A stretch of 64,000 bases of DNA from Granulicella sp. L46 (lineage in GTDB: Bacteria > Acidobacteriota > Terriglobia > Terriglobales > Acidobacteriaceae), in contig NZ_LMUT01000009.1 of assembly GCF_009765785.1 (NCBI RefSeq), positions 447,406 through 511,405 of the forward strand, in the 5' to 3' direction. Of the stretch, positions 23,070 to 59,652 are shown piece by piece. A program made the position numbers and the translations under genes. How positions within the stretch are numbered: position 1 is the stretch's first letter; the number at the start of each line of letters is the position of its first letter. The notes under the pieces were generated by a model, which worked only from the letters and a program-made list of their open reading frames with translations, had not been told where the DNA came from and did no database searches.

Positions 23070-23172
23070 TCATTTGCCGATGCAGAAGGTGATATTACGT
23101 CCAGACTCAGTGTTTATGCTGGTTTCCGAGCATTGGGCTCTTTCCGGAGGCTCACTGGAGACTCAAAATTGC
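23070..23172. repeat. Attachment-site copy 1: mnmE 3'-end core plus element arm
   Basis: Bases 23070-23090 read, on the minus strand, as the last codons of mnmE (TFCIGK stop; TTCTGCATCGGCAAATGA). The next 82 bases match those after copy 2 without gaps, 59 of 82 identical, ending in a fully identical 22-base stretch (starts CTCACTGGAGACTCAAAA) at 23151-23172. This is the left end of island A. The bases to the left do not resemble the left flanks of copies 2 and 3. Confidence 0.85.
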
Positions 23173-23504
23173 GGTGTGGCGTGAGATACGTTCGAGCCCC
23201 TTCCTCGAGAACGGTTCTGCTAGGCGGCGATGCAAGACATGCAAGTGCCGAGGCGCTCGGGCCTGATCGCTGAGCGTCAGTCCGGCAGGCCTGTCGCGGT
23301 CGACAGAGATGGCATCGTCCGATGTTCACGACTGAATGCAGACCGATGATCCGTGCCCCGTCACCAATTCCTCTGAATCGCCAGAAGGCGAAGGCTTCCA
23401 AGTCACCGACGGGTGAACCATTCACGGTCAGCCTCCGTGCGGGATCGCAGAGTTGCATCTTCAAGGCCAGAAGTAGAAGATGACGTTATCGGAGAGAGTC
23501 ACGA
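23173..23504. other. Left end of island A without a recognisable gene
   Basis: Between the element arm and lacI I see no gene I can support. The minus strand holds an open frame over 23114-23464, but it crosses the arm repeat and has no family features. GGAGAGAG just before the lacI ATG is the ribosome site. Confidence 0.5.
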
Positions 23505-24533
23505 ATGTCGGCACCGAAGTTGTCGGACATCGCCAAGCGCGCGGGAGTCTCGGCTGCTGCGGTATCGATTGTCCTAAACCATAACGAAACCAAGCGGGTC
23601 GGCCTCGCCAAGCGGCAGCTCATCCTCAAAATTGCCAAGGAACTTGGTTACACGCAAAATGTTTTGGCGAAGGCCCTCGTCGAGCGTCGGACGCGTCTCC
23701 TGGGTCTTATGGTGCCCCTCCGCGATCCAATCTTCTTCAACCAGTTCATCGCGCAGGCTCTCTCCGGCATCCAAAGCACCCTCTCCAGCCGCGGGTATAA
23801 CCTCCTCGTCTACTCCCCCTCCGGTCGGCCTGGCCGCGCCACCCGCGATCAAATTCTCGAAAGCAAATTCACCGACGGGCTTATCTTTATCAACACCCGC
23901 CTTTGCGCCCCGCGCGAAATCAGCCAGACAATTCACGAGCTCGACGAAGCAAAAATCAAGTTCGTTATGATCAATTCTTATTACGGTCGAGAGTTGATCG
24001 ATTATGTAGGAGTCGATGACTTTGCCATCGGCGAGGCAGCCGGTTTCCATCTTCTTGCCCGCGGCCACAAGTCGATCGCGTTTCTCAGCGGATCGCAGCA
24101 TCTTCCCACTAACCTGCAGCTCGTGCAGGGCATGCGCCGTGCCTTCTCCGACTCGGGCGTGGAACTCCCAGAGAGCCGCATTGGCTATACCGAATATCAG
24201 CAACCCACCGCCTTCATGGTGCTAGACCGTTGGTTCGCGAGCAAGCGCGACCGTCCCACGGCGGTTTTCGTTGGCGATGATCAGTTGCTCAATCATCTCT
24301 ACGATTACGTCGAGGCACGCAATCTCAAGTCTCCGTCCGACATCGCGATCCTCGCGCGCGGCAATGCTGGATTCATCTCCATGCTCCGTCCCCAGCCAAC
24401 CGCCTTCGCTATACCCACCTTCCAAATGGGTGAGGTGGCCGCAGCTAGGCTGATCGACTCTATCGAGAACCCCAGCCACCGACGCACCCGGATTCTTCTG
24501 CCGTTCCAGTTCATGCCTGGCCAGACGACCTAA
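23505..24533 (+). CDS. LacI-family transcriptional regulator
   Basis: 342 residues. The N-terminal helix-turn-helix KLSDIAKRAGVSAAAVSIVLN and hinge helix NVLAKALVERRTRLLGLMVP are typical of LacI/PurR. The C-terminal part is a periplasmic-binding-protein-like sensor (DGLIFINTR, DYVGVDDFAIGEAAGFHLL, RPTAVFVGDDQLLNHLYDY). It should bind a sugar or sugar acid. Three near-palindromic sites with a central CG, as LacI-family proteins prefer, lie at 24622, 28326 and 38932 in front of the island A operons, so it is probably the local repressor. The ATG has GGAGAGAG upstream. Confidence 0.92.
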   Translation: MSAPKLSDIAKRAGVSAAAVSIVLNHNETKRVGLAKRQLILKIAKELGYTQNVLAKALVERRTRLLGLMVPLRDPIFFNQFIAQALSGIQSTLSSRGYNLLVYSPSGRPGRATRDQILESKFTDGLIFINTRLCAPREISQTIHELDEAKIKFVMINSYYGRELIDYVGVDDFAIGEAAGFHLLARGHKSIAFLSGSQHLPTNLQLVQGMRRAFSDSGVELPESRIGYTEYQQPTAFMVLDRWFASKRDRPTAVFVGDDQLLNHLYDYVEARNLKSPSDIAILARGNAGFISMLRPQPTAFAIPTFQMGEVAAARLIDSIENPSHRRTRILLPFQFMPGQTT

Positions 24534-24584
24534 GCTCTCTCTACCAGCTTCCCCCGGCGTCGGGCCGAAGACCAAATTCCTTCG

Positions 24585-24635
24585 TTGACAACGAAATCCA
24601 TCGGGTGGTAGTGTCTGTGTTGTTAATCGCTTAAC
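24585..24635 (+). promoter_or_regulatory. Promoter and LacI-type operator of the MFS/FAD operon
   Basis: TTGACA at 24585-24590 and TAGTGT at 24609-24614 (18-bp spacer) form a sigma-70-like promoter. GTTAATCGCTTAAC at 24622-24635 is an imperfect palindrome (TTAAnCGnTTAA) at the expected start site, a repressing position. The same motif recurs twice in the island. Confidence 0.65.
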
Positions 24636-24638
24636 CCT

Positions 24639-25958
24639 GTGAATATGCCCCACCACTCCACCCCCGAATCTCCGCCGGTCAAGCTCGTTGTCGTGCCTCC
24701 GGAGGCAGCAGTAAACGCGACTGCGGCCTTGCACCCACATCAGCAGCCGATTCGTTGGGTCTTCGCAGGCCTCCTCTTGTTGGTCAGCGTTGTCAACTAT
24801 GTGGACCGCCAGACGCTCTCCGTTCTCGCCGTCACGATCCAACGCGAAATGCATCTCAGCAACGTTCGGTATGGCTATGTAGTCGAGAGTTTTTTGATCG
24901 CCTACATGATCATGTATGTTGTCTCCGGTCGACTGGTAGACAGGTTTCGTCCCAGGCGAACACAGGGCGTCTTCCTTCTTTGCTGGTCTCTCGCCAGCGT
25001 TCTTACTGGATTCGCAACAGGCTTTTTTTCGCTGGCTATCTACCGCGCGCTCCTTGGCGTTGCCGAACCTGGAAACTACACTGCGTCTGTGCGCGCTGTC
25101 GGGGACTGGTTTTCCGCCAGGCAGCGTGCGATCGCCGTCGGAATCTATAGCATGGGCGGCACGTTGGGCGCAGCCATCGCCGTGCCACTCACGGCGTTTC
25201 TAGCGTTGCGTTTCGGCTGGCGGGCTGCGTTCTTTATACCCGGTGCTCTCGGTCTGCTGGTAACGCTGATCTGGTTTGCCGTTTATCGCGATCCGGACTC
25301 GCCAACTCGCATCCCGGCACCGACAATGCCATGGCGCCAAGTCTTGCGCCAGCCCCACCTCATCGCGATGATCGTTACGCGCATGATGACCGACACCGTG
25401 TGGTACTTCTTTCTCTTCTGGATACCAAAGTACATGCAGGAAAGCCATCACCTGACCCTCGGGATGGTAGGCAAAACTTTGTGGATCTTATACGTGGCGG
25501 CCGATCTTGGATCCATCCTGGGCGGTGTTACATCGAGCTGGTTTGTTTCACGCCGCGGTGCGGTGCCCGGACGATTTGCGGTCATGGTCCCCACGGCCAT
25601 TTGCATGCTCGCGCTGAGCGTCGTCCCCCGGATCAGCAACACCACATCGGCCGTTGTAGTTCTCTCGCTACTCGCCGTCAGCCACATGGCATGGATGACG
25701 AACATCACGACACTAGCGCTCGATCTCTACTCGAGCCAGATCGTAGCTACAGTGCAGGGCATGATCGGCGCCGCGAGCGCAGCGGGTGGTGCCGTCTCCG
25801 CGGGTCTCATCGCTTACACAATTCAAGCCCATGGCTACCAACCGATCTTCGTCTGCCTCGCCTTCATGCACCCGGTTGCGATAACCATTCTATTTTTTCA
25901 ACTTCGACTTGGCAGGCGCTCAGCCGGATACATCCCCCCTGGAGAAATATTGGCGTGA
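24639..25958 (+). CDS. MFS transporter, ACS family (hexuronate/sugar-acid type)
   Basis: 439 residues with about 12 membrane spans. NYVDRQTLSVLAVTIQRE in helix 1 and the loop GRLVDRFRPRRTQGV are hallmarks of the anion:cation symporter family (ExuT, DgoT, Tcu types), which import uronic acids, aldonic acids or similar sugar acids with protons. An N-terminal extension of about 40 residues precedes helix 1. The start is GTG 24639 or ATG 24645; no clear ribosome site is seen, and the inferred transcript start is only about 18 bases upstream. The stop overlaps the next gene (GTGA). It is paired with an FAD oxidoreductase, as is its paralogue at 35240. Confidence 0.85.
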   Translation: MNMPHHSTPESPPVKLVVVPPEAAVNATAALHPHQQPIRWVFAGLLLLVSVVNYVDRQTLSVLAVTIQREMHLSNVRYGYVVESFLIAYMIMYVVSGRLVDRFRPRRTQGVFLLCWSLASVLTGFATGFFSLAIYRALLGVAEPGNYTASVRAVGDWFSARQRAIAVGIYSMGGTLGAAIAVPLTAFLALRFGWRAAFFIPGALGLLVTLIWFAVYRDPDSPTRIPAPTMPWRQVLRQPHLIAMIVTRMMTDTVWYFFLFWIPKYMQESHHLTLGMVGKTLWILYVAADLGSILGGVTSSWFVSRRGAVPGRFAVMVPTAICMLALSVVPRISNTTSAVVVLSLLAVSHMAWMTNITTLALDLYSSQIVATVQGMIGAASAAGGAVSAGLIAYTIQAHGYQPIFVCLAFMHPVAITILFFQLRLGRRSAGYIPPGEILA

Positions 25959-28252
25959 TCAAGCAAGTCACAGAGCAATACGAAGTCGTGGTTTGTGGCG
26001 GCGGCCTGGCCGGTTTGTGCGCAGCAGTCGCTTCGGCTCGTCGCGGGGCGAAGACCTGTCTGGTTCAGGACCGGCCCGTACTAGGCGGCAACAGCTCATC
26101 CGAGGTCCGCGTAACGCCCCACGGCGCCGCGGCTTTTCACGGATACGCTCGCGAAACAGGGATAATCTCCGAGCTTCTGATCGAAGAGCGCGCCGCAAAC
26201 CACGAGGAAATCTTCGAGAACGGATGGACCAACTCTGTTTGGGACCTTACGCAGTACGATCTCGTTCAGCGAACCGAAAACCTCACGCTGCATCTCAACA
26301 CGGTTGTCCTCGGAGTATCCGTGGAAGGCAGGGAACTTCGCTCCGTACAGTGCCGTGTTGGCAATGCCGAGATTGATCTCACTCTCCAAGGGAAGGTCTT
26401 CATCGATTGCACCGGAGACGGCATCGTCGCCTCTGAAGCCGGCTGCGAGTGGAGAATGGGCAGCGAGGGTAAGGCTGAGTTCGATGAACCCCACGCCCCC
26501 GCCACCGCGAACGCCGACGTCATGGGAAACTCGATTCACTTCAAAGCTCGCGATATGGGCCGCCCCACCCCGTTCAAGCTGCCCGACTGGGCTATCCATC
26601 ACGAAGATGCCAGCTTCTTCTACGATCAAGGTCGTCTCCCCAAGGAGATCCGCGGTGGCTACTGGTGGATTGAGATCGGTGTGCCCTATAACACTATCCA
26701 CGATGCCGAGATCATCCGCCATGAGCTCACGCGGCATACGCTCGGCGTGTGGGATTGGATCAAAAACAAAGACCCTAAGACCATGAAGCTCGCCGAGAAC
26801 TATGCGCTCGATTGGATCGGTCAGGTACCCGGTAAGCGCGAGAGTCGGCGCATCATGGGCCGCTATCTCATGACCGAATGGGACGCGATTCACAGCACCA
26901 TTCATGAGGATGAAATTGCATTTGGCGGGTGGTTTATCGATTTACATACCCCGGGTGGCCTGCTCGCCGCCACCAGCGAGCCCTCCAGCGCGGAAGGCTA
27001 TGCCGAGACAAGTGAATATGCCGTTCGGTCCTATGCCGGTCCCTATGGAATCCCGTTGCGCATCCTCGTTGCGAAGGATCTGGACAATCTGATGATGGCT
27101 GGTCGCAACGTAAGCGCGACGCACTGCGCTCTTGCCACCGTCCGCGTCATGGCCACAACCGCGCTGATGGGGCAGGCCGCCGGCGTCACAGCAGCGATTG
27201 CTGTTGAAGAAAAGAGCTCAGTAGCGGAGATCTGCAGTTCCAAGTACAAGGCCGTCCAACAAAACTTACTGCGCGATGGTTGTTTCCTTCCGAATGTTCT
27301 AAACGAAGACCCCGCCGATAAGGCCCGGAGCGCAAGTGTTATCGCCTCCAGTGAAGCGAAGTTCGCCGGACTCAGCCCTGAGAACATCGGTGCTCACGCC
27401 GGCTTGCACTTCTGGCGTGACCAGGCAGTCCCGCTCAAGCAGGAGTTGGTCCACCGGCGAGGCCAGTGGATCGGCGTTGGCGGGGAACCTTTGCGCAAGC
27501 TCCAATTCTGTCTCTCCAATCACTCCGACGTGGAGCAGGTCGTCGGCGTGCGCCTTATGAAAGTGATCCACATCTGGGATTATCGGATTTCCGATGAGAT
27601 GGAGCTGGCGCGAGGAACCGTCAAAGTTCCTCAGGGCGATCAGCAATGGATCGAGTGGCAGGTCCCGTCCGGAACGTCCGTTCCCACTACAGGCTATGTT
27701 CGCGTCGATCTCACAGAAAACTCCAACGTCCTGTGGCATGTAGCCGGAGCCATCGAGCCGGGCCACCTCTCCGCATTTCAGATGGCCCCTGCAACCATGC
27801 GCCGCTACTCCAGCGGTGTAACTCTGGCACTCAAGGTAGACCCCCCGCAGTCCTGCTTCCCCGCAGAGAACGTCATCAGCGGCAAGAGTCGCCCGCACGA
27901 TCAAACCCACCTATGGCGCTCCGATCCGCACCAGTCATTGCCTCAATGGGTGGAGCTGCGTTGGCAGCAGCCTCAAACGCTGCTCGTAGTGCAAGTAACG
28001 TTTCCGGGACATCTGCTTCGGGAATACCACGCATACGCTCCATTTTATCGGGATCCACAGTGTGCGAGGGACTACGAGGTGCACGCCGAAATTTTAGGGA
28101 AGTGGACGACCCTCGCAACCGTAGAAGGCAACTACCAGAGATTGCGACGCCACACGTTCGACCAGCCAATTACCGTCAGCGCGATCCGAATCGTCATTCT
28201 TGCCACCCATGGGGATCCATCCGCAGCCATCTATGAGATCAGGGCCTGGTGA
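25955..28252 (+). CDS. FAD-dependent oxidoreductase (FAD_oxidored type) with C-terminal discoidin-like domain
   Basis: 765 residues. The Rossmann motif CGGGLAGLCAAVASARRGAK begins at about residue 17 and is followed by DRPVLGGNSSSEVRV; FIDCTGDGIVASEAG and a late AGRNVSATHCALATVRVM complete the FAD_oxidored (PF12831-like) fold. The last 150 residues look like an F5/8C discoidin-type sandwich (NVISGKSRP to IYEIRAW). There is no signal peptide. Start: GTG 25955 overlaps the MFS stop, with GGAG at 25941; an open frame running farther upstream is antiframe within the MFS gene. It may oxidise an imported sugar or sugar acid. A paralogue of nearly equal length lies at 36526-38826. Confidence 0.85.
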   Translation: MIKQVTEQYEVVVCGGGLAGLCAAVASARRGAKTCLVQDRPVLGGNSSSEVRVTPHGAAAFHGYARETGIISELLIEERAANHEEIFENGWTNSVWDLTQYDLVQRTENLTLHLNTVVLGVSVEGRELRSVQCRVGNAEIDLTLQGKVFIDCTGDGIVASEAGCEWRMGSEGKAEFDEPHAPATANADVMGNSIHFKARDMGRPTPFKLPDWAIHHEDASFFYDQGRLPKEIRGGYWWIEIGVPYNTIHDAEIIRHELTRHTLGVWDWIKNKDPKTMKLAENYALDWIGQVPGKRESRRIMGRYLMTEWDAIHSTIHEDEIAFGGWFIDLHTPGGLLAATSEPSSAEGYAETSEYAVRSYAGPYGIPLRILVAKDLDNLMMAGRNVSATHCALATVRVMATTALMGQAAGVTAAIAVEEKSSVAEICSSKYKAVQQNLLRDGCFLPNVLNEDPADKARSASVIASSEAKFAGLSPENIGAHAGLHFWRDQAVPLKQELVHRRGQWIGVGGEPLRKLQFCLSNHSDVEQVVGVRLMKVIHIWDYRISDEMELARGTVKVPQGDQQWIEWQVPSGTSVPTTGYVRVDLTENSNVLWHVAGAIEPGHLSAFQMAPATMRRYSSGVTLALKVDPPQSCFPAENVISGKSRPHDQTHLWRSDPHQSLPQWVELRWQQPQTLLVVQVTFPGHLLREYHAYAPFYRDPQCARDYEVHAEILGKWTTLATVEGNYQRLRRHTFDQPITVSAIRIVILATHGDPSAAIYEIRAW

Positions 28253-28285
28253 GTTAAACGATCAGGCGCTCTGCAAAATTTTCGC

Positions 28286-28339
28286 TTGACAATTCTTTCA
28301 ATAGCTATATAACCTCAGCCCGTTCATTAAACGCTTAAC
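28286..28339 (+). promoter_or_regulatory. Promoter and LacI-type operator of the GH30 / TonB / GH2 operon
   Basis: TTGACA at 28286-28291 and TATAAC at 28308-28313 (16-bp spacer), followed by the operator-like ATTAAACGCTTAAC at 28326-28339. This is the second copy of the TTAAnCGnTTAA palindrome, again just at or after the expected transcript start. Confidence 0.7.
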
Positions 28340-28358
28340 TAACGGTTCCTTATAAACA

Positions 28359-29861
28359 ATGACGTTATATCCCTGCCTCGCTCCCCGTCCCTCCTTCCGA
28401 CTCGCGTTCGCGCTTGGACTCTTGCTCATTGCTTCAGAGACGGCAACTCGCCTTCGGGCGCAAACGCCAGTCACGAGCGGAACGTACACAGTTCGCGGGG
28501 ACAAGCCACAGCAAATCATCCGCGGTCTCGGCTTCGAAATCCAAAGTGACAGCATTGGCTCGGGAAACCAAGGCATGCCAAGTGAAGTAGTCGCAGTGCC
28601 CCACGACCTGACCCCGAGTGAGAAAACCAGGTTTTACACCCAGATGCTGCACGGCTTCCGTTATTCGCGTTTGGCACTCGGGTTATATCTCCGTGGATTA
28701 GACGCTGAGCAAAAGCACATCATCGAGCGCTACCCAGGCCAGATGAACGACCTTCACACCATGCAGGAGGTCTCCGGAATCGAGGGCTTCGACGTTGAGT
28801 ACTGGTCCCCCGCACCCTATTGGAAAGCGAACAAGTCCTACTACGGGGGCACCATTGCATCGACAACCCCGGAATTCGTTTCAGCGTTTAGTGATGCGAT
28901 GGTCCAGGACCTCCGCTATCTTGACGCACACGGCTTGCGCGTCGTGCAATGGGGTCTGCAGAACGAGCCAGGCGTGGGTCTTCAAGCTAAAAGCGCGGTA
29001 GCTCATGCATCCGGCAGCGCCGCCCAAGCCTATGCAACATGCTCCTACTCGCCCGAGGACTACTTCACTGTCCTCAGGGCAACAGCACCCAAGGTCCGCG
29101 CCCTTCTACCGGATGTTCAAATTCAGGCGCCAAGCTGGGATGGTCCATCCGGCAAGTACGCGGCCGAGATTCGCAAGGATCCCGCACTAACTAAAAATAT
29201 CGACTCATGGACCTGGCACCAGATAGGTCACGACTCCAATGACCCTATCGATCTCCGTGCGAAGTATCTAGACGGAGCCGACGGCAAGCCTGTTTACGAA
29301 AATGAGTTTGAGTACCAGCCGTGGGCAAAGAACCTCACAGTGGATCAGTACTTCATGAACACAGGCCAATCGCTTATGAACTGGATGGTCTTTGAAAACT
29401 CTCCGGTGTGGTACTGGCTACACGCACTCAAGCCCGTCACCAATATGGAAGCAACCGGCTACGCTCTGGGTTTCTGGCGTCCTGCCGGGGCAATCAACAA
29501 TACGCTCCGTCCCAATTTGCAGGTTGGTCACTGGGACTTCAACCCTTATATCTGGAATGCACTGGCAGGCTTCCTCAAATACCTTCCCTGGGACGCGACT
29601 CGCCTGCAGGTAGATGAGTCGACGGTGCAATACGACCAGCGGATCCTCGTTTGGCGCAAGCTTGGCAAGCTCGGTATTGCGCTCTCCAACCGTGGCACAC
29701 ACCCGTACACATTCGTCCTGACCGGCATCACCGCCAAAGAACTACAGGGCCACCGATACACCGTCTCTTCGCTTAACGACCCTCTGGGAACGAAGCGCGG
29801 CGAGTCGCAAATCTCAATCACAGTACCGCCGCAATCATATGAGTTTTGGATTTCCAGATAG
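28359..29861 (+). CDS. Secreted clan GH-A glycoside hydrolase, GH30-like
   Basis: 500 residues with a signal peptide (ALGLLLIASETATRL, cleavage near LRAQ). The body is a (beta/alpha)8 barrel of clan A: Glu203 in GLQNEPG is the acid/base, and Glu314 or Glu316 in VYENEFEY is the nucleophile candidate. A small C-terminal beta domain ends in PPQSYEFWIS, as in GH30. GH30 members act on xylan, glucuronoxylan, beta-1,6-glucan or glucosylceramide; a uronic-acid-containing hemicellulose would suit the neighbouring sugar-acid transporters, but the substrate is not proven. It starts the operon behind the second LacI-type operator, with the TonB receptor 40 bases downstream. Confidence 0.8.
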   Translation: MTLYPCLAPRPSFRLAFALGLLLIASETATRLRAQTPVTSGTYTVRGDKPQQIIRGLGFEIQSDSIGSGNQGMPSEVVAVPHDLTPSEKTRFYTQMLHGFRYSRLALGLYLRGLDAEQKHIIERYPGQMNDLHTMQEVSGIEGFDVEYWSPAPYWKANKSYYGGTIASTTPEFVSAFSDAMVQDLRYLDAHGLRVVQWGLQNEPGVGLQAKSAVAHASGSAAQAYATCSYSPEDYFTVLRATAPKVRALLPDVQIQAPSWDGPSGKYAAEIRKDPALTKNIDSWTWHQIGHDSNDPIDLRAKYLDGADGKPVYENEFEYQPWAKNLTVDQYFMNTGQSLMNWMVFENSPVWYWLHALKPVTNMEATGYALGFWRPAGAINNTLRPNLQVGHWDFNPYIWNALAGFLKYLPWDATRLQVDESTVQYDQRILVWRKLGKLGIALSNRGTHPYTFVLTGITAKELQGHRYTVSSLNDPLGTKRGESQISITVPPQSYEFWISR

Positions 29862-29901
29862 AGCTGTACCTCGACGCAATCGATCCTAAGGAGGCGCAAC
29901 A

Positions 29902-32900
29902 ATGTTGAAGATTCACAAGGTAGTTTCGTGGTCAACGAAGAGGCAGGCGGCTAGGCTTATCGCGCTGCTAATCGTGTCCGTAGTTGCCGGCGGCGCTGCG
30001 TATGCGCAGCAGGGAACAGGCAACATCTCTGGCAACCTTCGTGATGCCAGCGGAGCCGCCCTTGCAGGCGCCAGCGTCGATATTCGCAGCGAGCAAACGC
30101 AACAAGTCATTCACCTGAAAACAGATCAAGCCGGCTTCTACAACTCGCCGCCGCTCAATGTCGGGTTCTATAACGTGACAGCGGTTCAGCCTGGTTTTAA
30201 CAAAGCCGATAGCCGCGTTCAGGTCGATGTCGACAAGCGGGCTGAAGTCTCGATGGTCCTCCAGGCAGGTGCTGGCGAGCAGACCATCGAAGTCTCCTCC
30301 GACGCCTCTGCACTCAACACCACGAGCGCCACGCTCGGTGACGTTCTCGAGGCCAAATCGATCCATGAGCTGCCGCTCAACGGCCGCAACGCGCTTGCTC
30401 TCGTGGCACTCACGCCCGGCGTTCGAAACGACCTCGGCGCCAATCAGGAAGGCTTCGGCAACCGCGGCGTCTTTCTGTCCGCCATCAGCGTTAACGGTTC
30501 GCCCGTCGGAGACTCCGGCTTCATCCTCGACGGCCAGAACAACATCCAGGCGGTCACCGGCGAAGTCGCCATCAATCCCACCGTTGATGCAATCGAAGAG
30601 TTCAAAGTGCAGAGCGGCGTCATCTCAGCCGAGTACGGATATACCGCTGGTGGTGTCGTCAATCTCGTCAGCCGCTCCGGCACATCGCAGTTCCACGGCA
30701 CGGCTTACGAGTTCCTCCGTAACGACGCCTTTGACGCGCAGAACTACTTCGCTAATTCGGCCTTCCCTAAGCCTGAGCTTCGTTATAACCAGTTCGGCGC
30801 TGCGCTTGGCGGTCCCATCAAGCGCAATAGGGCCTTCTTCTTCGGTAACTGGGAAGAATATCACGAGATTCAGGGTCAACCTCAATACCTATCCATGCCT
30901 ACCTTGGCCGAGCGCAACGGTGACTTTTCGCACGCGGGTTCTTCCGTGCAAGGCAGCGCCGTGCCCATCCCCATCTACGACCCCGGCGCCCCGCTCAACT
31001 ACACAGGGCCACCCACCAACCCCGGCACTCAATTTCCGAACGATGTGATTCCCACCGACCGGCTCGATCCCGTCGCGCTGGCAGTCCAAGCTGAGTTTTA
31101 TCCTGTCCCGAACACACCGGCTGCCATCGCCAACCCCAACCTCCTCACCAACAACTTTTACTTCGAGCCCAAGATTCAGGTCACCGGCCGTCAGGCTCTC
31201 GGGCGTGTCGATTTTCGCTTTTCAGACACGAACAATGCCTTCGTTCGTTACGGCTATAGCGACAACCAGACGAACGACGGTGCAGCAGGCGCGGTAGCCG
31301 CTGCAACCCTGTATCCCAACCCGCTCGCAGCCAACCGCAACGATAATCTAATGGTTCAAAGTCTCGCCCTCAGCGACAACCAGATCTTCTCACCCAGTCT
31401 GTTCAACACAGTGCTGGTAGGCGTTACCCGCGTCACGTTTCCATTCCAGGCGGCCAGCTTCGGCAAAGACCTTCCCGGTGCTCTCGGTCTTCCCACCACC
31501 GGTCCGCACGCTGTCCCGCAGTACACGTTACCCGTCTTGAGCAACGGCCTGCCCGCGTTCAACGGCACCGCCGGTTACAGGACGTATACCGGTCCCCAGA
31601 TTACGGATACGGTTTCCAAACTTCTAGGAAATCACTCTTTTAAGTTTGGCGCAGATGTTCGTTACAACATCGGTTCGAACTTCCAGAGAAACGCACCATC
31701 TGGTACCTACAACTTCGCTCAAACCACTACCGCCAGCGGAGGAGTCGGCGGCAGTAGCTACGCCACTTATCTCCTGGGCAATGTGAGCACCTCAACCGCG
31801 GGCGCGGCCGCTGCTACCCTCACCGTCACGGGCGGTGAAACCGATCGCAGTACAGACACGTCGTTCTTCGTGCAGGATGACTGGCAGGCTCTGCGTCGCC
31901 TCACCCTTAATCTTGGACTTCGCTACGATTACCAGCAACAGGCCTACGAACAGAACAATGGATACAGCAACTTCAACACGACGGCGATCAATCCCGTAAC
32001 TGGTCTTCCCGGCCTTCTCCAGGCTGCAAGCGGAAAAGACCGCAACTTCATGAATGAAAATTACCTGAACTTCGCACCTCGCATCGGCTTTGCGCTAGGC
32101 CTCACGGACTCTGGAAAATTCATCCTCCGCGGCGGTTACGGCATCTACTATCCCTCCATCTTCAACAGCATCTTTACGGGCCTCACCAACGGTTTCTCCA
32201 ACACCACTACCTCGTATACGACTCCATTTCAATTCTCCTCAGGCTTGCCGTACCAACCTGCGCAGCCCGGAAGCACGCCCTTCCCAAACCTTTTTCTGGG
32301 AGGTGCGGTAGCCTTCCAGCGCGCCCATAGCCCAACTCCGATGTCTCAGCAGTGGACGCTGTCTTTGGAGAAGCAGATCGCCTACCAGATTGTCCTCGAA
32401 GCTACGTATGCAGCTAACCGGGGCACAGATTTTCCCGAAGGCAATCAGAACCTCAATCAACTTACGCAGGCTGAGATTAACGAAGTGCTAGCCAATCCGG
32501 GCGCAAAAGTAAGCAGCCCCTGTGCTAACACCGCGGGCACGCTAATAACGCTCGCGCAGTCGCTCGTCCAATTTCCCTGCTACCTCAGTGTTGCCGACAC
32601 CACACCCCATGAAGGCAGCTACAACGGACAATATCTCGAACTCACCGCACAGCGCCGTGCCGGTCATGGTCTCACGATTCTGTTCGCCTACACCGTCGGA
32701 AAGCTGCTCGACGACAGCATCAATACGCCGCTCGCCTATCTGTCGGCATCCACCAACCTCAACGGCTTCCAGAACATCTACAACCCGCGCGCTGAATACT
32801 CGCTCGATCCGACGGACGTCTCACAACGCTCCACCACCAGCATGCTTTACGATCTCCCCTTTGGCAAAGGGAATCGCTTCAGCTCAAGCAATAGATTCGT

Positions 32901-33384: not shown

Positions 33385-33415
33385 CCGACTCTGCCCGCGT
33401 CGTACAACCCAGTCT

Positions 33416-33455
33416 GCGACCGCTTCCTCCACTGTCCCTGGAGGAAGCGCGTCGC
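33416..33455 (+). promoter_or_regulatory. Intercistronic hairpin between TonB receptor and GH2 genes
   Basis: CGCTTCCTCCA (33421-33431) pairs perfectly with TGGAGGAAGCG (33439-33449) over a 7-base loop; GCGAC and GTCGC extend the stem by 5 bp with a one-base bulge. No T-run follows. It could stabilise the receptor mRNA or lower readthrough into the GH2 gene. Confidence 0.5.
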
Positions 33456-33483
33456 AGCCCAATGCATCCATAAGGGGGTTCCG

Positions 33484-35211: not shown

Positions 35212-35239
35212 GTTGCACGATCTCTCCGCTCCCGCCGCA

Positions 35240-36517: not shown

Positions 36518-36525
36518 AAAAGTCT

Positions 36526-38826: not shown

Positions 38827-38902
38827 AGACACAATCCTGGCCCTTTCTTCTCTCGCATATAAGGGATCGCCGCAAGTTGCTTCCACCTGCGGCAGCAGAC
38901 GA

Positions 38903-38945
38903 TTGCCGAAGGATGCTCAAAAAGAGTATATGTTAATCGCTAAAC
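38903..38945 (+). promoter_or_regulatory. Promoter and LacI-type operator upstream of GH31
   Basis: TTGCCG at 38903-38908 and TATATG at 38927-38932 (18-bp spacer), overlapping by one base the operator-like GTTAATCGCTAAAC at 38932-38945. Thirteen of its 14 bases match the site at 24622. It lies between divergent genes (FAD oxidoreductase and GH31). Confidence 0.65.
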
Positions 38946-39010
38946 CTGTCTACAGTGGATCCATCGTCCCGGCTTACGACACGCGGTCACCGACGCTTTC
39001 GGAGATTCAT

Positions 39011-42641: not shown

Positions 42642-42658
42642 GCTTTGCATCACAAAGT
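42642..42658 (+). promoter_or_regulatory. Second dyad operator, upstream of creD
   Basis: GCTTTG-CATCA-CAAAGT repeats the 41608 dyad with two base differences. It lies between the HTH gene and creD, 22 bases before the creD ATG. A T-run (TTTTTTTT, 42626-42634) precedes it. No clear -35/-10 pair is seen. Confidence 0.6.
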
Positions 42659-42680
42659 ACTTTCCAACAAGGAGCAGCAA

Positions 42681-44787: not shown

Positions 44788-44802
44788 TGTAGGATTTTTA
44801 CC

Positions 44803-45336: not shown

Positions 45337-45445
45337 CAACGCCACTTCATCCTCACAGGGTCCGGGACCGCCCCCTCCAGAAGCATGCTAAGCTGTCTCC
45401 ACTTAGCCTTCAGAGTCTTTGGCGAAAGCGGAGTTCAAGCTCGCA

Positions 45446-52800: not shown

Positions 52801-55800
52801 CGGAGCCATCGAAGAGAATCGCCACAACCTGCCCGCAGCCGTCGCCGAGTATGTGAACGCCGTCATTCATCCCATCGAGATCCCGCGTCACTTCGACTCC
52901 GCGCTGGGTGTCATCGATGCGTGGCTCAAGCCACCCTCCGACGCCGGCGACAGCAACTTCCGTTCCACCGCGCAAAGCTTCCTCGGCTCGGAGGAGTCCA
53001 ACGCCCGCCTCCTTCAGCTCGCTACCCGCACCAACACCAGGGCGATCGTAGATGCAGCCACCACAAAAGCTGTAGCCGACAACCCGTCCAACACCGCTGC
53101 GCTCACTCTCCGCGCCGACATCCTCGCCGCGCAGCATCCTGGCCCCGAACTGAATCCCCTCCTCACCACCCTCTTCAACCAGGCCCTCGATCGCACCTCA
53201 ACGCTCGACGAAGCCGCCGCCATTGGCGCCCTCGCGCAGGACCGCACGCTCACCCCCGTCTACGAGCGCGCGCTCGAAAAGCAAGCGACTCTTACCGCCG
53301 ACCCCGTGCAGAAAATCGAACTACAGTATTCGCTCGCCCATTCGCTCGAATCCCATGACGACATTGCCGCGGCCACCCGTATCATCGACTCCGTCTACTC
53401 CGCGAATCCGCGCATCCTCGGCGTCGTCCGTGCCACCACCGACTTCTTCATACGGACCAACCAGCCACAGCGCGCCATCGCCACCCTGCTCGATTCGGCC
53501 AAGCTTGCCACGCCATCCCTAGCACGCGACTTCACCCTCGAAGCCGCCAGCCGCGCCAACGATACGAACGACACCGCACAAGCCCGCACCCTCGCGCTCA
53601 CCCTTCTCGCGCAAACACCCTACGACCCGCGCATCCTCGACGTCGTCGCCACCAGCTACGCTCGCGCACACGACGACGCCGGCCTCAAGCAGTTCTACCT
53701 CGCTCAGCTTGACGCAGCCCGCAGCGCTCCCGGCCTCACCACCGACGCCCGCAAACAAAACATCGCGCTTCTCCGCCGCGGACTCATCCCCGCGCTCACT
53801 CGCCTCAAGGATTTTCCCGGCGCCACCGACCAGTACATCGCTCTCCTCTCAGCCTTCCCTGAAGACGCCAGCCTCGGGCAGGAAGCCGCTCTCTACGCTC
53901 TCCAGCACAGCCGCCAGCAGCAGCTCCTCGACTTTCTCCGCGCTACCATCAAGCAATCTCCGCGCGACTCCCGCTTCATGATCCTGCTCGCAACAGCCGA
54001 ATCCACATTCGGCGATCTTCCCGCGGCCGAGTCCGCTTACTCGCTCGCTATCGCTGTTCGCAAGGATCGAGTCGACCTCTACACCACGCGCGCGGAAATC
54101 GAATTGCGACTAAGCCAGGCCGATCCCGCGCAATCCGAACTCGCCGCCGCCGACTTCCAACGCCTCTACCTTCTCACCTACCACGATCCCTCATGGATGG
54201 TCCGCCTCGCCGAGCTCCGGGCCCGCCAGCAGCGTCCCGCCGATGCCGTCAAAGCGTTGCAAGTGGCCTATATCGATGGCCACGTTCAAGCCGCAACCGA
54301 CTACTTTACCGTTGCCGCGCAGCTCGAACACTGGAACCTGCTTACCGAAGCCAAGGCCTTCGCCGAGCAAGGCGCAGCCCTCGCTGGCTCCAACTTGCTG
54401 ACTCCGCCGACCACGGCCGCCTACCCTCAGCCCGAGAGCGGCGCCGTCATTTACGCCCGCATCCTCGCGCGCTCTGGTCAGGCCGATCGCGCCCTCGCAA
54501 CGCTCACTACCGCCCGCCAAGCAGCCGAGGTCTCTGCAACCTCGCCCACCGTTCTCTCGGCCGAACTCGCCCGCGAAAAGATCACCGACGACGAGTCCGC
54601 TGACTTCCGTAAGAACTTCGCAACCCAGCGCCGCCAGATCGCGAACGACAGTCTGAAAGCAGCCGTCGACGCCCTCGGGAAAACCATCCAGACCTACGAC
54701 ACGCCCGAACAAAAGCAAGTCTTCGCCCTCATCCTCGACAAGCTCCACAATGCAGCCCAGCCCAACGCCAACCCAACTCTCGCCCTACAAGCTGCAACCG
54801 CTGCCGGCCTCGCCGACCGCGAAGCAGACTGGCGCCAACAGAGCCTGCCCACCGATGAGCGCAACAACACCCAGCTCAACCTCTATGTATCTCTCCAGCA
54901 GAGCCGTCTGCAATTCTCCTCGCTAGCCCACGACCTCGAAACCTATGCAGCCCGCCTGCTGGCGCGCCGCCGCAATCCTGTTCTCATGAAAGCCGCGCAA
55001 GCCTACCGCGATGTCGGTGACACCACAGACGAACTTCGCGTCATCAGCACCCTCGTCCTTCACGGCAATGCTCCACTTCGTACCCGCTACTTCGATCTCC
55101 TCCTGCACCGCGATCCCCTCGCACTCACTGCCCTCGCAGCAAACAGCAACGCCGCCCTCGCCGATGCCGCACTCAACTACACGGTCACCCACGGCACCGA
55201 GGCGCAAGCCCTCGCCGCCGTCTCCAGTCGCGGGCAATCGCTGCATCCGGTCTGGCGTCCCGCGTCGGCATCGCTCGTCCAAACCTACTTCGTTAGCCCC
55301 ACCGCCACCACCGTCAATCTGTCTGACTTCAACCAGTCTCTCGCCGCGAACGCCACCATCGCCGACCGCCTCGCCGTTCCTCCCGATCCCACGCGCCAGC
55401 TTACCGGCGACACCTTCTTCTACTACGCCAGCCGCTTCGGTATCTTCCTCTCCACGGTTCACGATGCCGCCCAGCCCCTACCCAACGCCGAAGACTTCCT
55501 GCCCGCCGAGCTCGAAGCTTCTCCCGCCTCCCCCACACCGTATCTCAACCTGGCGCGCACCTACGCCGAAGCTCACAACATCCCCTCTGCCATCGCCGAG
55601 TACAACCACGCTCTCGAACTGTCTCCATCTGATCCCGCCATCGAGGACGAGTTCGCCATCACGCTCTATCGCGCCAACATGCACGATGCCGCGCTCAACC
55701 ACTGGCGCCAGTCGTTTGCCATCCTCAGCTCCATGCAGCAGCACGGCATGTATCCCGAAACTTGGTTCACCTCCTTTGAAGCCATCTCCCGTCATATCGG

Positions 55801-57538
55801 CCAGTTCCATCTCATCGCAACCTGCCGCCCTGAGATCGAAGCCATTCTCGGCCTCTACCTCGCAAAGAACGGCAACTACCGCTCCAACGAACTCCTCAGG
55901 GCTGTCTACCAGGCATCGCCCACCCCCGCGGAAGGCGCAAACCTGATCCTCGCCGTCACCAACTCGGCCTCGGACCCCAATCAGATCCTCGACGACCTCG
56001 AGCGAGAGAAATGGCTCTCCGACACATCGCGCGAGCCCATCCTGCTCCGCCAGGTCGAACGTCTCCGCGCCCATCCAACCGATGACACATCCTCCCGCAG
56101 CATTGCCGCTTACCAGGCCCAGCTTATCGAGCTCTACCTCAATCAAGACCAGGTTGCAAAGGCCCAGGCCACGTTCAACTTGCTGCCTGACAAAGATCGC
56201 CAGTCCGATCACATGGACGAAATCATCCTCGCGGTTCGCTCCAACCGCCTGCAAGCTCTTCTCGACGCGTGGCGCGCCAACCCCGACTCTGTTCCCAAGG
56301 ATTCGTTCGGCTCCGCCCTCTATCGCCTGATGAAACCTACACCCGCCTACAAGCCCAATCTCACGGCCATCCGCCCGCTGCGCGAATTCATCTTCGCGTA
56401 CAAGCAGCAGACCGACAGCCTTCAACCCACCGACTTCCTCGCACTCGCCCAGCTCCGCATCGACACAGGCGACCTGCCAGGCGCACTCGACCTGCTCCAT
56501 CAATTAGCGCTCCAGCCCGCATCGAGCCCGGAAAATGGCACCATGAAGTTCCCCCTCTCCGGAGATCCGGAGTTCAGTCCTGCCCAACCCGCCAGCATCC
56601 AGTACAACCTCAGCGGCCAGCCATCCAATCCCTTCATCAACACGGAATACGCCGCCTCGCTCCTGGAAAAGAACAACCGCTTCACCGAGGCCATTCCGTT
56701 CCTCCAGTCGCTCGCAAAGTCCGTGCCTTGGGATGCTTCTTATCGTCTGCGACTAGCCCAGGCCGAACTCGCTTCAAATGCCCGAGACCAGGCTCGCACG
56801 GACCTGCTATCCGTAGCCCGTGACGCTACGGCGCCCTACAATCTGCGCATTCAAGCCGCGCGCGCCTTGGCTCCTCTCACACCGCAAGCTGTCGAGCTCG
56901 GCAGTCAAGAGCTCTCGTTCATCGCGCATCCCTCCACTGCGGCTACGGCGCGCCAACCCTATGCGGACGAATCCCGCATCATTGCCGCCGCCATCGCGTC
57001 CACCTCCATCGCCGATCGCGAACGTCTCCTCCGCGAGGCCATCGCCATCCGCCCAGACGGCCAGGACACGACCCGCGCCAGGCTCGATCTACTTCTCCTG
57101 CAGGCACCCACTGCAGATCCCTCCGCTACCCTGGCCGTCCTTCGCTCCATACAAAACGCACCGCCCAGCGACGAGTCCGCAGCCCCTGACGCGGACACTA
57201 CCGCTTCCGGCAACGCTGCCTCCGCCGTCTCGTTACCTCCCGGCTCGAACAGTCTTGACCTCGCCAAGCGAATCCGCCTTGCGACACTCCTGGCTTCTGC
57301 GAACGCGCGCGACAACGATCTCAAGGCTGCTCTCGCCTATGCCCAGCTCGCAGTCACACTCGCTAAAGATTCACCCCAGCCCGACCTCATCCGCCGCCGT
57401 GACGAACTGAAAACTGCCCTTCTAGTCGCTCAGCGCAACCTCGCCCGAAGCCCCCATCTGCACGTGGCGCTATCTCAACCCAGTCAGGTCCGCCCGCGTC
57501 TCACCGCCTCCAACACGTATCAGGAGGACAGCCAATGA
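49856..57538 (+). CDS. Giant exported TPR-repeat protein
   Basis: About 2560 residues. An arginine-rich start with a hydrophobic helix (NRRLLAAGVVLGTLTVPLAARA) serves as signal or anchor, and nearly all the rest is alpha-helical with TPR-like units, for example TPYLNLARTYAEAHNIPSAI, DPLLYERLATFFEQNN, and a long run of A/L-rich helices. I chose ATG 49856 because AGGAGG stands 9 bases upstream at 49841; a frame open back to 49634 only shadows the VIT-VWA gene. It overlaps that gene by 14 bases and the next by 4. Such a scaffold could hold a large envelope complex. No enzyme domain is recognisable. Confidence 0.85.
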   Translation: MSSRKPVRNVSTRLFRKDNRRLLAAGVVLGTLTVPLAARATLPDWLQHVVGASTVESALYRAMQLPSVQALYPRPPKEAASELSRLIATNSSDAELYQLRARTDEQALDEPAAESDWKLYVAHSPDPTAARLELADFYQRRLMIPQEIAVLKDVAAAPPLPSETYIDPAAQRSWLAFERILGAIYQQGLPASETASTFNAFLARYPDQPAVYAAFFQFEIDQQDWPAAQSLIERYTHAFPQDKIFPIRAQALIEFHRGNIDAALAVYDHAFQPLWPTELIQSYFALLQQTHRQRAFVAAARDQLAAHPDGPEALNALARIFYYDQQAGRTDSAQQTLDAFRIARDTRNAPWTPTDLYTLANLSLSIHSYAEAARYNYALAASSGTAPTGEPSAQAGLARLIDILLQAPEQPLALGAQNLTLYRDIATLDQGPGYWNGILSLWLNGESPESQYKSETSKAQRYFHRAKAAELLADLDQRFPSAPERPALHAQLIRALSDYGEPATVISAGKQFLASFPSAPERLDVASLMADAYARQNDTSAEFALYESLLTELAAKTAGLPLTSSSTAPPPAPAPGTVGFYVRVQDPDSVDSDALPAQKLNAQPLAQLPTRKSLPEGTAYTAILDRYLGRLTATGQLPRALTVLRTQLDRNPNDPLLYERLATFFEQNNLSAQQEQIYQQAIAKFQQPSNYDKLARLYLREKKREAFAELAKKATDIFSGTDLDNFFANVNPKQPIGPQLALELDLYAAKRFPHDLVFTHNLLTAYQAATTRDTAAYEALLRSQWWESDDLRDEFLTYLSRAGKLQSELSQLESLNNQASAASPPSNPAAIREQAEIDIFTSHFEQGAPLLGSVADLYPADADTGDQAVSLYRSLAYLDPQPTSTLRAVALEKNLLAAAPDSPDRLATLGDLYAEATSTGGEDLAAAAPFWRRIPELHPNSTQAYLTTATIFWDYFQFDDALAEITAARTHLHSPALFGYEAGAIEENRHNLPAAVAEYVNAVIHPIEIPRHFDSALGVIDAWLKPPSDAGDSNFRSTAQSFLGSEESNARLLQLATRTNTRAIVDAATTKAVADNPSNTAALTLRADILAAQHPGPELNPLLTTLFNQALDRTSTLDEAAAIGALAQDRTLTPVYERALEKQATLTADPVQKIELQYSLAHSLESHDDIAAATRIIDSVYSANPRILGVVRATTDFFIRTNQPQRAIATLLDSAKLATPSLARDFTLEAASRANDTNDTAQARTLALTLLAQTPYDPRILDVVATSYARAHDDAGLKQFYLAQLDAARSAPGLTTDARKQNIALLRRGLIPALTRLKDFPGATDQYIALLSAFPEDASLGQEAALYALQHSRQQQLLDFLRATIKQSPRDSRFMILLATAESTFGDLPAAESAYSLAIAVRKDRVDLYTTRAEIELRLSQADPAQSELAAADFQRLYLLTYHDPSWMVRLAELRARQQRPADAVKALQVAYIDGHVQAATDYFTVAAQLEHWNLLTEAKAFAEQGAALAGSNLLTPPTTAAYPQPESGAVIYARILARSGQADRALATLTTARQAAEVSATSPTVLSAELAREKITDDESADFRKNFATQRRQIANDSLKAAVDALGKTIQTYDTPEQKQVFALILDKLHNAAQPNANPTLALQAATAAGLADREADWRQQSLPTDERNNTQLNLYVSLQQSRLQFSSLAHDLETYAARLLARRRNPVLMKAAQAYRDVGDTTDELRVISTLVLHGNAPLRTRYFDLLLHRDPLALTALAANSNAALADAALNYTVTHGTEAQALAAVSSRGQSLHPVWRPASASLVQTYFVSPTATTVNLSDFNQSLAANATIADRLAVPPDPTRQLTGDTFFYYASRFGIFLSTVHDAAQPLPNAEDFLPAELEASPASPTPYLNLARTYAEAHNIPSAIAEYNHALELSPSDPAIEDEFAITLYRANMHDAALNHWRQSFAILSSMQQHGMYPETWFTSFEAISRHIGQFHLIATCRPEIEAILGLYLAKNGNYRSNELLRAVYQASPTPAEGANLILAVTNSASDPNQILDDLEREKWLSDTSREPILLRQVERLRAHPTDDTSSRSIAAYQAQLIELYLNQDQVAKAQATFNLLPDKDRQSDHMDEIILAVRSNRLQALLDAWRANPDSVPKDSFGSALYRLMKPTPAYKPNLTAIRPLREFIFAYKQQTDSLQPTDFLALAQLRIDTGDLPGALDLLHQLALQPASSPENGTMKFPLSGDPEFSPAQPASIQYNLSGQPSNPFINTEYAASLLEKNNRFTEAIPFLQSLAKSVPWDASYRLRLAQAELASNARDQARTDLLSVARDATAPYNLRIQAARALAPLTPQAVELGSQELSFIAHPSTAATARQPYADESRIIAAAIASTSIADRERLLREAIAIRPDGQDTTRARLDLLLLQAPTADPSATLAVLRSIQNAPPSDESAAPDADTTASGNAASAVSLPPGSNSLDLAKRIRLATLLASANARDNDLKAALAYAQLAVTLAKDSPQPDLIRRRDELKTALLVAQRNLARSPHLHVALSQPSQVRPRLTASNTYQEDSQ

Positions 57539-59334
57539 AACTCCGCGCCGCCATTGCTCTCTTCCTTATCACCACGTCGGTCGCCATTGCCTATCGCATC
57601 CGCATCGCGCAGCAATCCGTCGCCCCTGCATCCCTCACGGCCTACGTCCCCGCCGACGCACTGCTCACCATCGAGTCGCCAGACTTCGCCGCCCTCCTTC
57701 AGCAGTGGACGAACTCTGTCGAGTGCAAGTCCTGGCTCGCCTCCGACAACAATTCTGTCTTTCAGAACTCACGCCTCTTCGGTCGTCTCAGCGACGCGCA
57801 AACCAACTTCGCGACCGCCGCTGGAATTCCCGTTGGCGTCGACTTACTGCACGAGATCGCGGGCAAGCAGTCTGTCTTCGCCTGGTACGACATCGGCAAG
57901 CTTGAATTCCTCTACATCACGCGCCTGCCAGCCGGCCAGGCCGACCAGACGGCACTGTTCCAGGCGCGCGCCAGCTTCCAACGCCGACATGCCGGTAACA
58001 CGGACTTCTACATCCGCACCTCCGGCACGGACTACAGCACCGTAGCCTTCGCGCGCGTCCCCAGTCCCACCGGCGACCTCATCCTCCTCGCCACCCGCGA
58101 AGACCTCATGGCAAACGCGCTCACGCTCATCGCCGCCTCCTCACCGGCAAACTCCGTCGAGCAGGAGCCCTGGTTCCGCGATGTCTCCGCCGCCCTCCCC
58201 GCCGAGAAGTCTGCACCGGCGCTCCACATGGTGCTCAATCTCGACCGCATCGCCGTCGACCCTCACTTCCGTTCCTACTGGATCCAGGGCAACGTCACCT
58301 GGACCCAGCAGTTCCGCGCCGCTGCCTCCGACCTCTACATTGAATCCAAAGGTTTCCGGGAAGAGCGAGTTCTCCTGCCAAAGCCCACCGCAGCAGAACC
58401 CGCTACGCTTAACCTCGCGCCGCTCGCAACGCTGCCGCCACCCTCCACCGGCGTCTATCGCGTCGTGGCCACCCAGGATCCCAGCGTCGCGGTTACCGCG
58501 ATTCACGAGAAGCTTGTCGGCACGTCCAACACCCCAACCTCCAACCCCGAGAGCGCTCCGAACCCCACCACCGACGCTCCGCAGTCCGGCTCTGCCACCG
58601 ATCTCGAGACCCGCATCGACGCCCTACCGCCCGTCTCTCCAACGTCCTCTACCGACGGCCTGAAGAACCTCTTCCAGACCATTGGCCTCGACGCCGTTCT
58701 CACTCTCTCCTCGGCGCAAAATCCCTCCGACCCGCAAGGCCTTTGGATCCCAATTCATTCCGCCGTCGTCCTCCACACCGCCAACCCCGCAAATCAGCAA
58801 GCCCTGGCATCCGCGCTAGAGCAAATTCTTCGCGGCCAATTAACTGCCGCCAGCATCGGCGTCAACTTCCAGTCCAGCACAATCTCCGGCGTTCCCATCA
58901 GCGCCCTCACCGGTCCGCGTCACCTCTTCTTTGCAATCTCAAGTACCCCAGCAACGGGAAACCTCATCCTCCTCGCGGACGATGAATCACTCCTCTCTGA
59001 TCTCCTGCACAATCTCGCCATCAACTCGCCAAGAATCACCCCCCTTACCGCAACCTCGATCGCCGTCTTCAATCACTCCACCCAGCGCACTCCCTACCTG
59101 CGGCTCACCTCCCTCATCGACGGCACAAATCATTCCGCTCCTACCGTCCTTAAACCTGCCTCGACAGCACCCGATGCAACCACCGGAGAAGCCCCCACCG
59201 CCCCCGCCTTCTTCTCCCAGAACCTCGGCTCGCTCTCCAACACCTTCGCCGACCTCGAATCCGAGCGCGTCGTCGAGCGCCTTGTCGATTCCAATCTCCG
59301 TCAAACCGTCACCTACACTTGGCAGACGCACTGA
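57535..59334 (+). CDS. Exported protein of unknown function ending the propeller/VIT-VWA/TPR operon
   Basis: 599 residues. N-terminal signal or anchor (AAIALFLITTSVAIAYRI), followed by a periplasmic region with YVPADALLTIESPDFAALL, which resembles DUF3352-type proteins, and repeated segments (GDLILLATREDLMANAL and GNLILLADDESLLSDLL) that suggest an internal duplication. A low-complexity Pro/Thr/Ser linker lies near 325-360. The ATG overlaps the TPR gene stop (ATGA). No catalytic motif is seen. Being fourth in a tightly coupled set of exported proteins, it is probably a component of the same assembly. Confidence 0.7.
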   Translation: MKLRAAIALFLITTSVAIAYRIRIAQQSVAPASLTAYVPADALLTIESPDFAALLQQWTNSVECKSWLASDNNSVFQNSRLFGRLSDAQTNFATAAGIPVGVDLLHEIAGKQSVFAWYDIGKLEFLYITRLPAGQADQTALFQARASFQRRHAGNTDFYIRTSGTDYSTVAFARVPSPTGDLILLATREDLMANALTLIAASSPANSVEQEPWFRDVSAALPAEKSAPALHMVLNLDRIAVDPHFRSYWIQGNVTWTQQFRAAASDLYIESKGFREERVLLPKPTAAEPATLNLAPLATLPPPSTGVYRVVATQDPSVAVTAIHEKLVGTSNTPTSNPESAPNPTTDAPQSGSATDLETRIDALPPVSPTSSTDGLKNLFQTIGLDAVLTLSSAQNPSDPQGLWIPIHSAVVLHTANPANQQALASALEQILRGQLTAASIGVNFQSSTISGVPISALTGPRHLFFAISSTPATGNLILLADDESLLSDLLHNLAINSPRITPLTATSIAVFNHSTQRTPYLRLTSLIDGTNHSAPTVLKPASTAPDATTGEAPTAPAFFSQNLGSLSNTFADLESERVVERLVDSNLRQTVTYTWQTH

Positions 59335-59612
59335 CCGACACGCCTCTACGCGCTTGCTTCGAGTTCTTGCTTCCGCAACACAGACCGTGACGGATCGCTC
59401 CGGTACCCTCACAAACTTAAGATGCTGATGGGTTGAAGAATATGGCTAAATCACCCAAGCAGAAAGGGCACACTAACGTTGAGCTTGATACAAGCTGAAC
59501 ACTTCCGCTATCGGTTCGGCCCCTTAGCGAGTGGTCGCACGTAGTTTAGATGTCTCGGGAAATGCGCTCAAAGCTGCTCGAAGGAGCCAGCATTGTTTGC
59601 ATGTATATTGTT
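59335..59612. other. Right end of island B without a recognisable gene
   Basis: About 280 bp between the last island B gene and copy 3 of the attachment core. A short frame (MAKSPKQKGHTNVELDTS) at about 59443 is too small to call. I see no terminator, RNA gene or recombinase trace. Confidence 0.5.
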
Positions 59613-59652
59613 GATAATAAACCTTTATCAGTCATTTTCCGATGCAGAAGGT
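59613..59652. repeat. Attachment-site copy 3: authentic mnmE 3' end plus island B right arm
   Basis: The core 59632-59652 is the genuine mnmE 3' end (TTCTGCATCGGAAAATGA on the minus strand). Its left flank GATAATAAACCTTTATCAG (59613-59631) resembles the left flank of copy 2, including the dyad GATAA / TTATC. To the right the sequence is mnmE coding and does not resemble the arms beyond copies 1 and 2, so shared sequence on this side stops at the core. Confidence 0.85.

Follow-up and report, generated by a model that had tools for sequence, protein, structure and literature searches.

Results

The window, a 64-kb stretch of contig C2 of Granulicella sp. L46 (window position 1 is C2:447406), carries the gene mnmE on its minus strand and, to the left of it, a chain of islands bounded by copies of that gene's last 21 bases. 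This core, TCAnTTnCCGATGCAGAAGGT on the plus strand, stands at 23070, 41367 and 59632, at distances of 18297 and 18265, and each copy reads TFCIGK-stop on the minus strand. The copy at 59632, which is mnmE's own end, has no mismatch to the core, the copy at 23070 has 1 and the copy at 41367 has 2; the best remaining match in the window has 6 mismatches and lies on the opposite strand. An earlier reading of the letters alone (the original prediction) had named these three cores and placed a complete mnmE at the third only, and both points are borne out: only 59632-61158 is a full mnmE, scoring above the cut-off of NCBIfam TIGR00450. Translation may in fact begin some 20-30 codons into the open reading frame (ORF), since the alignments with most relatives set in at about residue 20-32.

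In the 5.48-Mb genome, the core pattern occurs at 5 places, all on one strand of a single 69-kb stretch (C2:438413, 443879, 470475, 488772 and 507037), and its reversed control at none; with the mismatch counts in the window, this rules out a chance repeat as the source of the cores. Querying the genome with the 23070 copy together with its flanking DNA brought up 2 decayed copies, near C2:397029 and C2:417622, so that 4 copies, 2 intact and 2 decayed, lie left of the window. The resulting 7 sites, in a single orientation, bound 6 islands across 110 kb. We name these E6 to E1, E1 adjoining mnmE; in that order the intervals are 20.6, 20.8, 5.5, 26.6, 18.3 and 18.3 kb, and the window holds E1, E2 and most of E3. 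A tandem array had thus been correctly called, but its count of two covered just the islands nearest mnmE, and there are at least six. The window contains no tRNA or Rfam RNA, and such a target was rejected. Its features are as follows.

59632..61158, minus strand: mnmE, the target gene (TIGR00450), with the attachment core in its last 21 bases (59632-59652)
59632..59652, minus strand: attachment core at mnmE, the proximal end of island E1
41367..59631, no strand: island E1, 18.3 kb, with a winged-helix regulator, CreD, a UppS-type prenyltransferase, a Reg_prop protein, a VIT/vWA protein and a 2634-aa TPR protein
41367..41478, minus strand: distal end of E1, core 41367-41387 plus arm region; profile R1 93.0 bits, a training row
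23070..41366, no strand: island E2, 18.3 kb, one nine-gene sugar locus
23070..23181, minus strand: distal end of E2, core 23070-23090 plus arm region; profile R1 99.7 bits, a training row
22663..23028, minus strand: dead integrase remnant of E3, a C-terminal piece; PF00589 E 1.8e-4, below cut-off
1..23069, no strand: the part of E3 in the window, with amino-acid/acyl metabolism, dicarboxylate and MFS transport, and MmgE/PrpD

In the window copies, likeness to mnmE ends at the 21-base core, and the 23070 and 41367 copies have about 110 bp more in common with each other than with mnmE. All 6 distal copies carry, on the island side of the core, about 100 bp of non-mnmE sequence with GAGTCTCC repeats and GCATAAACACTGG; because they share this sequence, we read them as attachment sites and not as copied gene ends. 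The 6 ends, together with one in G411, a genome of another genus, share GAGTCTCCAGTGAGTCTCC repeats, with GCATAAACACTGG about 17 bp before the core, variably decayed; decay is strongest in the 2 outermost, which match the consensus of the other ends at 72-73% (vs 81-87%). Similar repeats lie between mnmE and an integrase gene in a relative, G013, a position that would suit arm-type integrase binding sites.

An arm-plus-core profile, R1, trained on the 6 own ends and the G411 end, recovers untrained ends in G004 (E 1.4e-28), G012 and G013. Within the host's own genus it matches 5 of 28 genomes at E up to 0.01 (G020 weakly) and within the family, under stricter filters, 8 of 200 at E up to 0.001; outside the genus it matches G487 (twice), G541 and G521, plus weaker ones. 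Nine contexts were read, G536 and G020 being left out. In five of them (G004, G013 contig C47, G541, G521 and G487) the match is linked to mnmE, to part of an integrase or to the native neighbour of mnmE described below, three have the core with no recognised neighbour (G012, G525 and G450), and the match on G013 contig C6 consists of arms only.

The core pattern for the class, TTCTGYATYGGNAARTRR, is found in 181 of 399 genomes, with 2 matches in all for the reversed pattern. The host genome has the most matches, 5, followed by G114 with 3, and two or more occur in 9 genomes (G261 was left out of the context reading), three of which have them on different contigs. Among the nine, G160 is of another kind: its two cores are 2.06 kb apart (L089), and the repeat reaches over 100 bp into the mnmE coding sequence. 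The third copy in G022 (L054) likewise extends well into the coding sequence, and both seem to be duplicated gene ends, the product of a process unlike that behind attachment sites.

If islands have entered here, some relatives should show what stood beside mnmE without them. Left of the last decayed copy come a peptidase C26 gene and genes that by eye read as rsmG (gidB), parA and parB (C2:385449-388987). Among the first 20 relatives fetched, 19 of them of the host's own genus, this native block follows mnmE in 7. In same-genus genomes the gap is about 85 bp in G005, 2.3 kb in G024, 4.2 kb in G021, 9.1 kb in G006 and 12.4 kb in G025, with G008 and G027 rearranged; G005 is an empty site. In G004, the block starts 2.0 kb past the site found by R1. 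Genomes of the genus Granulicella (genus g28, with G309, G114 and others) were counted apart from the host's own genus and give empty sites of a second kind. G309 has a 29.35-kb island with a gene 0.3 kb past its distal core, and this gene is 66-90% identical to one that, in 5 of 13 single-core g28 genomes (G221, G178, G146, G108 and G246), lies behind mnmE at +103 to +130. G114 has 2 islands in tandem, of 22.8 and 10.5 kb, ahead of the same gene. The comparison proposed with the original prediction was thus made, and it came out as foreseen: mnmE is trailed by other DNA, with an empty site in G005 and, with boundary cores, in g28. The outcomes named as fatal to it, repeats without presence/absence variation or conservation of the two noted islands after mnmE, were looked for; those islands are not conserved there, and empty sites are present.

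Three parS-like 16-mers (TGTTCCACGTGGAACA) stand beside rsmG-parAB at C2:387429, 387455 and 388311 (L065), about 9 kb from the outer end of the array, and the island chain parts mnmE from this chromosome-partition locus. The stretch of roughly 8 kb that separates the outermost decayed core from the native block (C2:389139-397006; L065, L066) encodes a MocR/PdxR-like regulator and a GH3 enzyme and could be a seventh island with its distal end lost.

The enzyme expected at such sites is found at mnmE in relatives. G013 has an intact 421-aa tyrosine recombinase (PF13356, PF22022 and PF00589) 133 bp after mnmE. Searched against the 399 class genomes at E up to 1e-60, it has at least 5 matches, a lower bound since at most four candidates per genome were scored, and 5 of 5 lie directly after mnmE. 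A GTDB scan with four such integrases gave 116 loci, and in 76 of the best 80, loci of Acidobacteriota and Proteobacteria, a frame that ends in FCIGK-stop precedes the integrase by 110-515 bp; 3 of the 80 (L092, L096 and L125) are the query sequences themselves. The exceptions are L165, a G487 contig with an integrase piece after an inner core, L169, which starts only 319 bases before the match, L142 and L167. A tree of 71 rows keeps the two phyla almost apart, with 2 changes each. These results support the earlier proposal of tyrosine-recombinase insertion at a gene 3′ end.

Within the array, an integrase of this branch is represented, among the proteins scanned, only by the E3 remnant; intact ones occur in relatives. 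The remnant matches the L101 integrase at 64.8% over 125 residues; in the alignment it is without about the first 300 residues, and the stretch of the relatives' presumed catalytic tyrosine is not conserved. It is the only one of the genome's 32 PF00589 matches to lie on contig C2, and the genome gave no match at E 1e-60 to the G013 integrase among the 4 of 10 candidates scored. Cores in G013 (contig C47), G487, G541, G411 (four in-frame stops) and G409 (partial) likewise have an incomplete or interrupted integrase beside them. The G309 island, with its integrase, MobC above cut-off, a relaxase family below cut-off (23.1 vs 24.6 bits), ends and an empty site, is an integrative mobilizable element (IME), having an integrase, a mobilisation gene and defined ends. 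In G013 (L039, contig C1, 1426-10961), a mnmE island with an intact integrase continues with type I-C cas3, cas5, cas8c, cas7, cas4 and cas1 and, where the contig ends, what appears to be a repeat array. The cargo of this island is a CRISPR-Cas system.

The cargo of the array is largely metabolic, and among the proteins scanned (not every ORF) the E3 remnant is the only mobility gene. No integrase was found in E1. E2 runs LacI, MFS, FAD oxidoreductase, a 500-aa protein with no Pfam match, outer-membrane beta-barrel, GH2, MFS, FAD oxidoreductase and GH31. E3 has a full length of 26.6 kb, its distal end at window -3526 (C2:443879), and encodes AMP-binding, decarboxylase, Cys/Met and homoserine acyltransferase enzymes, transporters and MmgE/PrpD. 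The 3 proteins scanned in E4 have no Pfam match. E5 encodes ABC and NMT1-like transport, Trp-halogenase-like, Asn-synthase-like and radical-SAM-like proteins and FG-GAP/UnbV; its halogenase-like, radical-SAM-like and Asn-synthase-like genes stand together (C2:417622-438413; L006/L007), possibly as a biosynthetic cluster. E6 encodes RhaT, DeoR and GntR regulators, a gamma-glutamyltranspeptidase and a beta-barrel. Composition was uninformative as an island signal, with island G+C at 55.9-61.1% against 60.1% and 56.8% outside.

The nine E2 genes recur in the same order, at 48-69% identity, in genus g31 (G154, G213 and G174), and six or so, rearranged, in G182; no mnmE core occurs in the 40 kb read. 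Of 200 family genomes, 8 (with the host) have the one E2 gene searched for, and none of the 6 other genus members drawn does. One E1 gene was found in 21 of 200, again with the host, and a four-gene block of E1 (45419-59334) recurs away from mnmE in the same-genus genomes G015 and G001. In this conserved block the 2634-aa TPR protein is encoded beside the VIT/vWA protein (window 49634-57538).

Discussion

Site-specific integration at the mnmE end, followed by tandem accretion and then by integrase loss, is very probably the best explanation of the array. A tyrosine integrase with arm-binding, core-binding and catalytic domains would recombine the core of an island with the last 21 bp or so of mnmE, and integration would rebuild the gene end, stop codon included. 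Each new island would enter beside mnmE, displacing the older ones outward. The integrases would then decay, leaving islands that keep both ends and cannot move alone, that is, cis-mobilizable elements (CIMEs). At least six such steps would yield the 110-kb chain now standing between mnmE and the native rsmG-parAB block. Seen directly are the sites and their arms, the empty sites, the linkage of the integrase to mnmE, one dead integrase and the patchy occurrence of the E1 and E2 cargo. Present-day excision of the islands contained in the window is unlikely, because E1 and E2 have no integrase and the sole remnant belongs to the next island, E3.

Several observations weigh against this explanation. 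Five of the 6 own islands show no integrase among the proteins scanned, and its loss from them is something we infer. The decay of the ends is not strictly monotonic along the chain; with 6 sites, the probability that the 2 outermost come out lowest by chance is about 1 in 15. No excised circle was seen. The expected native neighbour was unseen in the stretch fetched in 8 of 13 g28 genomes and in 13 of the 20 first-fetched relatives, which may reflect other insertions, rearrangement or contig ends. E4 encodes a 527-aa protein (L007:11152-12735, C2:441152-442735) with no other close copy in the host genome; in G309 and G114, a protein 69-78% identical to it is encoded upstream of mnmE, at a distance of 4-12 kb. 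E4 is thus possibly not foreign to the region: it may consist of local DNA enclosed by two sites, or it may have come as an island from a Granulicella-like donor. Finally, the islands of G309 and G114 are without the GAGTCTCC/CATAAACA arms. One arm motif for every mnmE island is therefore rejected; to judge from these ends, the same core is used by at least two arm types. The E4 and arm results slightly reduce our confidence in the explanation. As for the 8 g28 genomes without the expected neighbour (L074-L077, L080-L082 and L084), their locus varies beyond the recognised islands.

The small space beside the cores invites another idea, in which the islands are integrase-free operon cassettes, each a single metabolic locus with fixed ends inserted by an integrase in trans, and mnmE is akin to a large-format integron site. 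The cargo of E1 and E2 reaches within about 140-435 bp of the cores, which leaves no room for an integrase, and E2 is exactly one conserved locus. Moreover, E1 and E5 share an integrase-less proximal end (score 43, with 0 of 400 random windows as high). An end of this kind common to all islands was rejected, as only E1/E5 exceed every control; windows as high number 2 of 399 for E3/E4, 11 of 392 for E1/E2 and 20 of 400 or more for the remaining pairs. However, the 240 fetched loci (2.55 Mb) show the E1/E5 end in no further genome, the incomplete or interrupted integrases beside cores (E3, G013 contig C47, G487, G541 and G411) are what decay of autonomous islands predicts, and the host genome has, among the candidates scored, no match to the G013 enzyme at the threshold given above and, of its PF00589 matches, only the remnant on contig C2. 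Cassettes of this sort seem unlikely. A further form of the idea, which we hold to be rather improbable, makes the Acidobacteriaceae mnmE a capture site for whole loci of 5-27 kb. These would have fixed ends, made up of the core and GAGTCTCC/GCATAAACACTGG arms, but would lack a recombinase; the trans integrases of autonomous relatives would insert and perhaps shuffle them to form an integron-like, locus-scale library near the partition locus. In integron cassette arrays, cargo units that lack a recombinase line up in one orientation at a single site. The chain resembles them in layout and differs in its 5-27 kb units and in using a protein gene end.

Copying of the mnmE end by duplication or gene conversion, without site-specific recombination, apparently happens in the class, as in G160 and in the third G022 copy, where the repeat extends into mnmE. 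At the array, the mnmE likeness stops at the core and the distal copies share unrelated arms, and empty sites and linked integrases contradict duplication, which is extremely improbable as the source of these copies. There is a slim chance that a composite island, already joined up in a donor, brought in the whole chain or a part of it, such as some neighbouring islands, in place of successive insertions in this lineage. Transfer of composite tandems of CIMEs and integrative conjugative elements (ICEs) is reported in the available part of PMC5704250, but decay differs in degree along the chain, the G+C of the islands differs over the range given above, and the cargoes of E1 and E2 each occur without the other in the regions of relatives read.

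Integration with accretion and integrase loss has precedents, which we take from the available parts of the papers cited. SGI1 inserts at the last 18 bp of trmE/mnmE, as the original prediction had stated, and forms tandem arrays of up to six copies (PMC2297512). The array lies at this same target. Those SGI1 arrays are, however, one element repeated in transconjugants, and here we find six different islands with largely metabolic cargo, E1 and E2 without integrase, in an Acidobacteriota host. No mob, tra or xis Pfam family was found among the array proteins scanned, IncC-responsive promoters not being sought; because a mobilisation/IncC-responsive backbone was not recognised, we do not file the array as SGI1 family. 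Two different islands in tandem at trmE/mnmE are described in Vibrio and Proteus, and the same paper terms tandem islands at trmE not rare (PMC7449626). The original prediction had called this target with two consecutive insertions undescribed for an acidobacterium; in these two other genera tandem insertion there is already in print. In Dehalococcoides, many different islands lie in tandem at ssrA within 100 kb; 20-bp repeats, which have further conserved sequence to one side, mark their boundaries, and some of the islands are possibly cis-mobilizable without integration genes (PMC3146451). Our array is likewise one of different islands in tandem at one gene end with shared repeats; the ssrA islands differ in their serine recombinase and tmRNA gene target. 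Known, too, is the three-step accretion of CIMEs with IMEs and ICEs, in which attL and attR are kept, integration genes are lost and the next element enters at the gene end (PMC5704250). The array fits these steps: its tandem elements are bounded by shared att sequence, and E1 and E2 have attL and attR without integration and transfer genes. CIMEs are, though, described mostly as derived from ICEs or IMEs with conjugation ancestry, of which none was seen in the array proteins scanned.

Target and mechanism are thus already known, and the kind is known. Among the matches listed, no mnmE islands in Acidobacteria are evident from titles, abstract starts or word counts, and the available part of PMC3174227 mentions neither trmE nor mnmE. 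As far as these matches show, three things are new: the phylum, an integrase branch in Acidobacteriota that has an arm motif of its own, and a chain at mnmE made up of six different islands. Gene gain in Acidobacteriota is little studied, and the arm-plus-core profile locates island ends in further acidobacterial genomes. The end of mnmE is an island target far beyond the resistance islands of enterobacteria, with its own integrase branch in Acidobacteriota, and the chain described here resembles a layered record of acquired sugar and amino-acid loci.

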